From Sulfitobacter noctilucae (GTDB lineage Bacteria > Pseudomonadota > Alphaproteobacteria > Rhodobacterales > Rhodobacteraceae), in NCBI RefSeq assembly GCF_000622365.1, contig NZ_JASC01000013.1:1-64000 (forward strand): a DNA stretch of 64,000 nt, read 5' to 3'. The notes beneath the pieces were generated by a model that saw only the letters and a list, made by a program, of their open reading frames with translations, had not been told where the DNA came from and did no database searches. Of the stretch, positions 41,090-43,521 are shown in pieces. Position 1 is the first letter of the stretch, and each line of letters begins with the position of its first letter. The translations under genes and the position numbers were made by a program.

Positions 41090-42004
41090 CTATACTCCGC
41101 TCAGGATGGTGCCGGGGGCAATCTGCGCCCCGCTTTGAAACACATCCACATCCTGCGCTGCCTTGCCCGCCCGTTGCAAGCGCAGCAACTGTACCGCGCC
41201 AGTGCCGCAGGCCACGCGAAGACCGGAATCAAGCACTTTGCTCGGTTGTCCAGAACCTTCCGCAAGGGATGAGCGCAATACCTTGATACGCGTGCCATTT
41301 AGATCAAACCAGGCACCGGGAAACGGCGAAAGACCTCGGATCAAACGATCCACTTCTGCCGCGGGCCGCGTCCAATCGATACGCGCCTCGGCTTTATCGA
41401 TCTTGCTGGCGTAGGTGACACCCTCCTCCGGCTGCGGCTCTGGCTGTAATCGGTCCAATGCAGCAAGCGCTTCGACAATTGCCTCTGACCCCAAAACGCT
41501 CAAACGGTCATGAAGCTCTGCCGTTGTCTCCTCAGCCCCAATGGCCAGCGATTTGCGCAACAACACATCGCCCGTGTCCAACCCTGCATCCATCTGCATG
41601 ATGCAAACACCGGTTTCCGCATCCCCTGCCATGATCGCCCGGTGAATAGGAGCCGCCCCGCGCCAACGCGGCAAAAGGCTCGCGTGGATGTTCAGACAGC
41701 CCTTCTCGGGCGCGTCCAATATCGCCTGCGGCAGGATCAACCCATAAGCGACAACCACCGCAATATCCGCCTTCAGTGCTGCAAAATCGGCCTGCGCCTC
41801 CGCCGTCTTCAGCGAGACTGGGTGGCGCACATTCAGCCCCAACGCCTCGGCACGGGCCTGAACCGGCGACGGGCGATCCTTCTTGCCCCGGCCCGCCGGA
41901 CGCGGGGGCTGGCAATAGACAGCAGCAATTTCGTGGCCTGCTGCGACCAAAGCCTCCAGGACCGGCACTGAAAAATCCGGCGTTCCCATAAAGACGATCC
42001 GCAT
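41090..42004 (-). CDS. fmt: Methionyl-tRNA formyltransferase
   Basis: A 304-residue enzyme that formylates initiator Met-tRNA. The active-site region [20 protein letters not shown] holds the Asn and His, and [12 protein letters not shown] the Asp; the N terminus [19 protein letters not shown] is typical. It lies ten bases downstream of three deformylase genes, so both enzymes of the formyl-methionine cycle share an operon. Confidence 0.97.
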
Positions 42005-42014
42005 GGTCTGGCCC

Positions 42015-42512
42015 CTATCCGTTCAGCTTCCGCGCCTTGCGCAACAGCATGTCGCGCTTGGTTTTGCTGAGATTGTCGAAATACATCTTCCCCGCCAGAT
42101 GGTCGATCTGATGCTGCACGCTGGTGGCTTCCAGCCCGACAAACTCGCGCCGGGCGATCACACCTTTTTCGTCCAGATACCGGACAGATACTGCACGCGG
42201 CCGCGTGATTTTGGCCGAGACGCCCGGCAAACAGGGGCTGGCTTCCTCGTGCTCATTGGGTTTGGCCGAGGCTTCGATCACCTGCGGGTTGGCCATGAGG
42301 ATCCGCCGCTTGCGATCTGTTGAGGCATCAACTACCGCCAGCCGCAGCATCACGCCGATCTGCGGTGCCGCAAGACCCACCCCCGGCATGGCATCCATAG
42401 TCTCGACCATATCCGCCCAGATACCACGCACCTTATCGGTGATCTGCGATACCTCTTCGGCAGGAGTGCGAAGCCGCTTGTCTGGCCATTGCAAGATGGG
42501 CCGAACCGTCAT
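42015..42512 (-). CDS. Peptide deformylase paralogue with a degenerate active site
   Basis: A 165-residue deformylase-fold protein. Motif 1 GVGLAAPQ is intact, and the metal-binding Cys94 remains, but the EGCLS motif reads ASPCLPG and the zinc motif reads HQIDH (134-138): the catalytic glutamate is glutamine at 135 (codon CAG at 42108-42110, one base from GAG). It is therefore probably inactive as a standard deformylase, or altered. It is the third of three tandem copies, overlapping the second by four bases. Confidence 0.9.
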
Positions 42513-43006
42513 TGCGCCGCGTATTCCGTCATCAAGGCGGCCCGGTTTTCAGCATCTAAATGATCAAAGGTTACGACCCCATCCAGATGATCCAACTCAT
42601 GCTGCACACAAGCCGCGGCAAAGCCGTCAAAGCTTTGCACATAGCGCCCACCGTTCAGCCCGGTCCAGACCATCTGCACCTGTGCAGGACGGCTGATGTC
42701 GGCGCTCACCCCCGGAATACTTAGGCAGCCCTCGCTGTTGGTCTGGCGCTCCTCGCTGACCTCCTGCAGCATCGGGTTAATGCAAACGATCGGGTCGGAC
42801 TTGCCCTCTTTCCAGCCCGTGTCCATCACGAAAATGCGCTGCATCACACCAACTTGGGGGGCGGCCAGCCCGCGACCGGGGGCATCGTACATGGTTTCCA
42901 GCATATCCGTCGCCAATTTCTCGATCTCGGGGGTGATCTCGGCCACCGGCACGCAGGTTTCGGTCAGACGCGGATCAGGCCACAGGACAATCGGCAGCAC
43001 GCTCAT
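42509..43006 (-). CDS. def: Peptide deformylase, second copy
   Basis: A 165-residue metal-dependent deformylase with all motifs: GRGLAAPQ, EGCLSIPG (Cys94) and HELDH (136-140). It should remove the formyl group from nascent proteins. It is more divergent than the first copy and closer in length to the degenerate third copy. It overlaps the neighbours on both sides by four bases (ATGA). Confidence 0.95.
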   Translation of the reverse strand: MSVLPIVLWPDPRLTETCVPVAEITPEIEKLATDMLETMYDAPGRGLAAPQVGVMQRIFVMDTGWKEGKSDPIVCINPMLQEVSEERQTNSEGCLSIPGVSADISRPAQVQMVWTGLNGGRYVQSFDGFAAACVQHELDHLDGVVTFDHLDAENRAALMTEYAAQ

Positions 43007-43521
43007 GCGCGGGCCAATTCGCGTTTCAGCTTGACCATTTTGCGCGTCATCATCTGACGCTTGAGCGGCTTGAGGTAATCAATGAACAGCTTGCCATCCA
43101 GATGGTCGATCTCGTGCTGCACGCAAGTCGCCCATAGCCCGTCAAATGTCTCGGATTGCGGATTGCCGTCGCGGTCAACCCACTCGACATCGACGACTTT
43201 AGGCCGCGTCACATCTGCATAAAGATCGGGAAGCGACAAACAGCCCTCTTCATAAGTGTTCAACTCATCCGACCCGGCCACAATCTGAGGGTTGAACATC
43301 ACCAGGGGGCGCGGCTTGTCGCCCTCTTCCTTGACACAGTCCAGCACAATCAGCCGGTCCAGCACGCCTACCTGAGGCGCAGCCAGCCCGATCCCCGGTG
43401 CCTCGTACATGGTGCGCAGCATGTCGCCCGCCAACAGGCGCAGATCGTCGCTCAAGTCAGCGACGGGCTTTGCCACCTTTTTCAGGCGCGGGTCAGGGTG
43501 CAAAAGAATAGAGCGTTTCAT
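43003..43521 (-). CDS. def: Peptide deformylase, first copy
   Basis: A 172-residue canonical deformylase: MKRSILLHPDPRLKK at the start, GIGLAAPQ, EGCLSLP (Cys94) and HEIDH (136-140), plus a basic C-terminal helix that in E. coli contacts the ribosome. It is first in the def-def-def-fmt operon and most likely the main housekeeping enzyme. It is divergent from the PatB-like gene. Confidence 0.96.
   Translation of the reverse strand: MKRSILLHPDPRLKKVAKPVADLSDDLRLLAGDMLRTMYEAPGIGLAAPQVGVLDRLIVLDCVKEEGDKPRPLVMFNPQIVAGSDELNTYEEGCLSLPDLYADVTRPKVVDVEWVDRDGNPQSETFDGLWATCVQHEIDHLDGKLFIDYLKPLKRQMMTRKMVKLKRELARA

Follow-up and report, generated by a model that had tools for sequence, protein, structure and literature searches.

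Peptide Deformylases and Their Accessory Forms

Peptide deformylase (PDF) removes the formyl cap from new proteins and is both an essential enzyme and a drug target. Canonical PDFs carry motif I (GxGxAAxQ), motif II (EGCxS), which contains the metal-binding Cys, and motif III (HExxH), which contains the catalytic Glu, and the backbone NH of the residue after the metal Cys (position 91) presumably helps to hold the formyl oxygen. K150, R153, K157, K160 and R163 are described as the ribosome contacts of E. coli PDF (PMC12690207). The available text of PMC7683392 reports that the C90S substitution abolishes the activity of Salmonella PDF, in which Cys90 is the nitrosylated residue. Type 3 PDFs, known from S. 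aureus, S. pneumoniae, trypanosomes and archaea, are described as accessory and weak or inactive proteins with substitutions in motifs I and II and with unconserved C-termini (PMC12690207, PMC5591237). DefA of B. subtilis is an accessory PDF whose binding and inhibition of the kinase PtkA do not depend on deformylase activity; this role outlives the loss of its catalytic Glu in the inactive E133A form, as presented in the available part of PMC11194573.

The survey of Lamberioux et al. in 2025 reported that 98.1% of the reference species of Rhodobacterales have def clusters, with three genes in 62.5%, discussed motif-poor accessory PDFs in general terms and termed the rationale of the Rhodobacterales clusters elusive (PMC12690207). 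A catalytically void member, a constant member and a helix difference between members are not described in its available text, supplements aside. A literature search for a deformylase pseudoenzyme returned nothing related among the titles and abstract openings, a search on Rhodobacter sphaeroides essential genes and deformylase likewise returned nothing related, no def paralog was found in the available text of PMC13131673, and PMC3101196 contained no term of interest. The cluster itself is therefore already known; as far as these searches show, and supplements aside, a fixed pseudoenzyme as its core second member is new, and so, within the same literature, is a split of catalysis and docking among the cluster copies.

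A Tandem def Cluster Upstream of fmt

The window is a stretch of 64,000 nucleotides of Sulfitobacter noctilucae (contig NZ_JASC01000013.1, positions 1 to 64,000), and it carries a tandem def cluster of the same kind as those described in PMC12690207. All genes of the cluster lie on the minus strand. PDF copy 1 (43003-43521, 172 residues) is canonical, with the catalytic motifs and a basic C-terminal helix. Copy 2 (42509-43006, 165 residues) has the catalytic motifs, lacks the basic ribosome helix and is often absent from relatives. Copy 3 (42015-42512, 165 residues), a putative pseudo-deformylase, is followed after a gap of 10 nucleotides by fmt (41090-42004, minus strand), which encodes methionyl-tRNA formyltransferase (TIGR00460, 285.7 versus 201.5 bits). 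Copies 1 and 2 contain EGCLS and QHExDH, and copy 3 contains EEASPCLPG and QHQIDH (Gln135 in its own numbering). A profile search gave PF01327 scores of 175.4, 166.4 and 149.1 bits for copies 1, 2 and 3 against a cut-off of 22.8, and these are the only three PF01327 matches at E <= 0.001 in the whole genome (3.9 Mb, 14 contigs). Copy 3 also scores 132.3 against TIGR00079 (cut-off 103.95), and it is a member of the peptide deformylase superfamily (PF01327 / TIGR00079) by profile scores and fold. The adjacent def genes (1/2 and 2/3) overlap by 4 nucleotides each, and all three frames are intact. The original prediction had described three tandem PDF genes at these positions, with EGCLS and HExxH in the first two and with an intact third gene that overlaps the second and precedes fmt, and the open reading frames and PF01327 scores bear this out. 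Its reading of HQIDH and ASPCLPG in copy 3 is likewise correct.

The layout recurs in relatives. In 153 of 158 copy-3 loci a same-strand fmt gene follows downstream, the others having none in reach (four) or no room (one). Copies 2 and 3 overlap in 79/87 loci, and a 4-nt overlap joins copies 1 and 3 in 35 of the 67 loci that hold only these two. Among the best 80 of 495 named relatives, the nearest copy 3 is that of Sulfitobacter sp. EhC04 (80% identity). Position 97 (E. coli numbering) of the canonical copy 1 (43003-43521 in the window) is Tyr in 100 and Phe in 54 of 154 loci. The R97Y substitution lowered actinonin susceptibility in V. cholerae (PMC12690207), and by analogy bacteria with such a copy 1 may tolerate actinonin.

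Active-Site Residues Lost and Retained in Copy 3

Residues were counted, in E. coli numbering, over the 154 loci, out of 160, that contain both copy 1 and copy 3 (87 of them also copy 2); the loci span two genome collections, possibly with shared species. Motif I of copy 3 (GVGLAAPQ in the window; 42360-42383, minus strand) is retained, with Gln50 in 154/154, although some relatives have Gly in place of A47 or A48. The region EASPCLPG (42222-42245, minus strand) replaces the EGCLSxPx of motif II and fails the canonical pattern in every copy, with C90S and L91P in 154/154 and G89A in 145/154. In motif III (42099-42116, minus strand), QHQIDH replaces QHExDH; E133Q is present in 154/154, and HQxDH is found in 158/158 classified copy-3 proteins. 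C129S is likewise present in 154/154, so that both active-site Cys residues (90 and 129) are Ser throughout. Gln133 is encoded by CAG in 143 and CAA in 11 copies and Ser90 by five different codons, the residues being unchanged. G43, G45, Q50, E88, R102, H132, D135, H136 and G139 are invariant in 154/154, and R97 is replaced by Ser in 132/154.

Position 92 of copy 3 is Asn in 135, Cys in 18 and His in one of the 154 loci. In the window (42237-42239 and 42231-42233) a Cys stands there in place of the commoner Asn, as in 17 others, a minority in which a thiol has returned near the site. This Cys of the SPC sequence was considered as a relocated metal ligand and rejected, because it aligns at E. 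coli position 92, where 135/154 relatives have Asn; the metal-ligand position itself, two residues earlier, is Ser in 154/154.

Judged from the aligned residues, copy 3 has lost the metal ligand, the oxyanion-side residue and the general base, all in fixed form, and has kept the cleft and both His residues. Since the metal Cys, the residue that follows it and the catalytic Glu are all fixedly replaced, copy 3 is very likely to be without deformylase activity. Glu-to-Gln inactivation of a deformylase was not found in the literature searched, the cases found in the available texts being E133A of DefA and C90S of the Salmonella enzyme.

Copy 3 resembles the canonical type 1B PDF (E. coli def) in its full-length fold including the C-terminal helix, in motif I, in both His ligands and Glu88, in its basic helix and in its fmt neighbour, and differs from it at four residues substituted in 154/154, namely the metal Cys, Leu91, Cys129 and the catalytic Glu. 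It shares with the type 3 PDFs, as described, an accessory position, substituted motifs and predicted weak or absent activity. Unlike them, by those descriptions, it retains motif I and a type 1-like helix and is changed in motifs II and III; the type 3 combination of substituted motifs I and II is thus not found in copy 3, in which motif I is intact. DefA, as described in PMC11194573, offers a precedent for copy 3 as an accessory PDF whose role persists once the catalytic Glu is gone, and differs from it in being an active enzyme of a Gram-positive bacterium that acts on the kinase PtkA.

Conservation of Gln133 in the Rhodobacteraceae

To classify proteins independently of the substituted residues, profiles of copies 1, 2 and 3 with the motif columns masked were built from every second sequence and applied to 418 proteins. 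All 158 proteins of the copy-3 class have Gln and all 257 others with a readable motif have Glu, the remaining 3 of the 418 having no readable motif. All 13 genomes of the same genus, that of the window included, carry copy 3 with HQIDH and E[A/G]SP[N/C]LPG. In a sample of 80 Rhodobacteraceae genomes drawn evenly, the copy-3 profile (E <= 1e-45) gave 67 matches, one of which (in G074) is a canonical PDF, leaving 66 of 80 genomes with copy 3, all with HQ. Among the best 80 of 495 named relatives, HQ was found in 80/80, a count that is not an independent test of Gln since SVQHQIDH served as a search pattern. The original prediction had proposed an alignment across relatives, and this alignment shows that both the Gln and the absence of EGCLS are conserved (E133Q, C90S and L91P in 154/154). 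A private mutation is thus rejected, Gln being present in 13/13 same-genus, 66/66 family-sample and 158/158 motif-blind copies.

Outside the family, a QHQxDH DNA pattern, which misses other flanks such as the LHQVDH of the family member L092, matched no PDF, either in 237 other genomes of the class or in 284 other genomes of the phylum, versus 15/15 family genomes in the latter set; the two outside samples have 17 genomes in common. A scan of viral sequences revealed no relative of copy 3. The record L145, titled Nocardioides marinus, contains a roseobacter-like def cluster with a copy 3 of 72% identity, and is probably a mislabelled or contaminated assembly.

Of the 14 family genomes without copy 3, 11 have exactly one PDF (E <= 1e-10) with canonical motifs, and copy 3 is therefore not indispensable; no PDF was found in the other three, which are 82, 91 and 83% complete. 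The 66 family-sample loci comprise 36 with copies 1, 2 and 3 (35 assigned by script, plus L059, whose copy 3 had no start codon for the script), 29 with copies 1 and 3, and one (L058) with no other PDF in the locus; copy 3 thus persists in loci that have lost copy 2. A similar division into 40, 37 and three irregular loci is seen among the best 80 of 495 named relatives, the irregular ones being L168, in which copy 1 is split, L175, whose middle gene is unclassified, and L205, which is cut by a contig end. Because loci were fetched through copy 3, an arrangement of copies 1 and 2 without copy 3 could be seen only in genomes lacking copy 3, and a second PDF was found in 0/14 of these. It is copy 3, and not copy 2, that consistently accompanies copy 1.

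Two irregular genes were observed in the other copies. In L168 (Pseudophaeobacter leonis 306), copy 1 is spread over two overlapping frames, either through a sequencing error or because this canonical def is broken. Copy 2 of L255, which lies outside the classified set, has IQHKLDHL with Lys in place of the catalytic Glu, and from this example copy 2 seems to decay in places.

Origin of Copy 3 and a Second Altered Lineage

In a quick tree of 98 rows, copy 3 forms one clade (SH-aLRT 100) and copy 2 another (97). A more careful tree of 70 rows, from which the motif columns were dropped, recovers the copy 3 clade at 100/99 and separates the family copies from other alphaproteobacterial PDFs at 100/100. 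This tree was thinned from 247 rows, with 7 named rows dropped, mostly on long branches, and since it gives a warning of long branches that meet between copies 2 and 3, any placement of a sister to copy 3 is tentative. Because the copies group by family (100/100), duplication within the family lineage fits best, and copy 3 probably arose when a PDF gene was duplicated in tandem within the Rhodobacteraceae.

A second PDF lineage that has lost active-site residues, NF009484 (an NCBIfam entry typed as an equivalog 'peptide deformylase'), was observed in L219, L220, L221 and L249; we take it to be the 'peptide deformylase-like' lineage of Swiss-Prot. It exceeds the cut-off in 3/142 genomes of the class, and one more sequence was found besides. 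The sequences have GITxPH, EGS[V/I]S and HEIDQ, with loss of Gln50, the metal Cys and the second His. They share with copy 3 the replacement of Cys90 by Ser and a basic C-terminal helix (4/4, the helix judged by eye), and differ in retaining Glu133, in losing the second His (HEIDQ), in having His for Gln50 and in not adjoining fmt in the three stretches fetched. NF009484 was rejected as the home family of copy 3, which scores 138.4 against its cut-off of 190 and has other motif losses. The careful tree places NF009484 among other alphaproteobacteria and apart from copy 3, with an AU p of 0.27 for a tree joining them, and with the quick tree's data the joined tree is better by 30.6 log units (p 0.83); a joint origin is thus rejected by neither.

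Selection on Copy 3

Genomes carrying all three copies form 3,741 pairs, over which identity averages 0.744 for copy 1, 0.683 for copy 3 and 0.534 for copy 2; it is higher for copy 3 than for copy 2 in 3,449 of these pairs, and higher for copy 1 than for copy 3 in 3,193. In a first set of comparisons dS was saturated and dN/dS inflated, with medians of 0.31, 0.23 and 0.48 for copies 3, 1 and 2. In the closest independent genome pairs (those of lower dN), dN/dS of copy 3 is about 0.05-0.18, similar to copy 1. Pooled values are 0.29 for copy 3 and 0.26 for copy 1 over 24 independent pairs. Several of these pairs still show a low dS beside a high dN, probably an artefact of base composition; in one of them the ratio is 0.98 for copy 3 and 0.90 for copy 1. 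Over the 8 pairs with copy 2, the values for copies 3, 1 and 2 are 0.20, 0.21 and 0.34.

Sites at which at least 97% of copy 3 sequences share one residue make up 22/44 of the active-site stretches and 19/115 elsewhere (Fisher p 3.7e-5), and the lost active site is thus still among the most conserved parts of copy 3. No broken copy 3 occurs among the 158 classified, a set whose length limit would miss fragments. The suggestion in the original prediction of selection for a non-catalytic or altered role gains support, Gln being shared with other genomes and dN/dS being low in the closest pairs; the opposite outcome, a Gln private to this genome with relaxed selection, is contradicted by both conservation and dN/dS.

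Fold and Ribosome-Facing Helix

An AlphaFold2 model of copy 3 built with 78 relatives has a mean pLDDT of 96.5. The closest solved chains, among those ranked highest by Foldseek, are canonical PDFs (9qfr_A: Z 27.2, rmsd 1.8, 164 residues aligned). Against E. coli PDF (4az4) the model gives Z 27.1 and rmsd 1.5, and against E. coli and Vibrio PDF together Z is about 27 and rmsd 1.5-1.8 over 163-164 residues. By this model, copy 3 has the canonical PDF fold, with a substrate cleft and a basic helix. The C-terminal helix, model residues 150-164 (42021-42065, minus strand), is the counterpart of the ribosome-binding helix of E. coli PDF. Lys or Arg occupies all of E. coli positions 150, 157 and 160 in 154/154 of copy 1, 154/154 of copy 3 and 0/87 of copy 2, and the median helix charge is +8, +6 and -1, respectively. 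These sequence features suggest that the two jobs of PDF may be divided within the cluster, copy 1 keeping both, copy 2 the catalytic residues only and copy 3 the helix only.

Docking of copy 3 on the ribosome appears probable on this basis, with less assurance than its loss of activity. E. coli R153 is Met in 148/154 of copy 3 and 135/154 of copy 1, and therefore the ribosome contact is not wholly E. coli-like; the helix end of copy 3 (R163 onward) is variable or missing. Given these changes, docking of copy 3 may be weaker or different, and part of its helix charge may reflect descent from copy 1, not retention for docking.

Possible Roles of Copy 3

The preferred reading, to which we give a probability of roughly 0.4, is that copy 3 is a pseudo-deformylase, docked at the tunnel exit, to which formyl-Met chains bind without being hydrolysed. 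Copy 3 would share a transcript with the real deformylase, would dock at the ribosomal tunnel exit in a PDF-like manner and would bind N-formyl-Met nascent chains without hydrolysing them. It would thereby compete with or time deformylation, and hence Met removal and the formyl-Met degron. The formyl-Met binding or competing role, taken by itself, is a tentative proposal. More tentative still is a whole split system, in which copy 1 would be dual, copy 2 would serve catalysis only and copy 3 would be a docking reader of formyl-Met that gates N-terminal processing, with NF009484 maybe a parallel invention. Counting against the preferred reading is the invariance of both His ligands and of Gln133, in keeping with a retained metal site and perhaps with a different chemistry.

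Copy 3 could instead be a regulatory partner off the ribosome that binds copy 1 or an unrelated protein, by analogy with DefA and PtkA. The strict companionship of copies 1 and 3 and their frequent 4-nt overlap would suit co-translational pairing, though overlap of genes by itself is no proof of contact, and the copy-3-specific residues W8, W31 and M41 also speak for this reading. The E133A form of DefA provides a precedent, but B. subtilis DefA is itself an active enzyme (PMC11194573). On balance such a partnership seems unlikely, even as the foremost of the alternatives.

An altered enzyme, using Ser/His/His with another metal, or a metal-free Ser and His, on formyl-Met or other acyl groups, would have a thiol-free site that could resist oxidation or NO, and is less likely again. 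Consistent with it, H132, H136 and Gln133 are invariant in 154/154; however, deformylation chemistry presumably needs a base and an oxyanion donor, and copy 3 has neither, with Glu lost in 158/158 and Leu91 replaced by Pro in 154/154. The change of Cys90 and Cys129 to Ser in 154/154 would remove the residue that is nitrosylated in Salmonella PDF, yet C90S abolished activity in that enzyme (PMC7683392), and Cys is regained at position 92 in the window and 17 others. Alternative metals have been proposed for type 3 PDFs (PMC12690207).

Very improbable is a role as an inhibitor sponge, in which copy 3 would take up natural PDF inhibitors and so shield copy 1. Much of the cleft is retained in copy 3, but its R97 is Ser in 132/154, and actinonin-type binding requires a metal centre. 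Natural PDF inhibitors are reported to occur in the sea, but copy 1 already has Tyr/Phe97, a feature tied to low actinonin affinity (PMC12690207).

That copy 3 is a relic under relaxed selection, kept merely to couple translation to fmt, is hardly credible and was rejected on conservation (residues 154/154, Gln 158/158): its location, flanked by fmt and the other def genes in 153/158 loci, and its absence from 11 family genomes would suit a relic, but Ser, Pro and Gln would not have become fixed in one, the dead site is invariant, dN/dS is low in the closest pairs, and identity (0.683) exceeds that of copy 2 (0.534; copy 1, 0.744; 3,741 pairs).

Implications

Copy 3 bears on the Rhodobacterales def clusters that the 2025 survey left without a rationale (PMC12690207). 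Copy 3 lies above the cut-off of TIGR00079, which is of the type 'equivalog', and annotation by this family would thus count dead proteins as deformylases, affecting surveys of PDF redundancy and resistance. The group concerned is a widespread, culturable and mostly marine family. If the fixed member of its def cluster is indeed a ribosome-docking pseudoenzyme, deformylation at the tunnel exit would be regulated in these bacteria by a dedicated non-catalytic factor.
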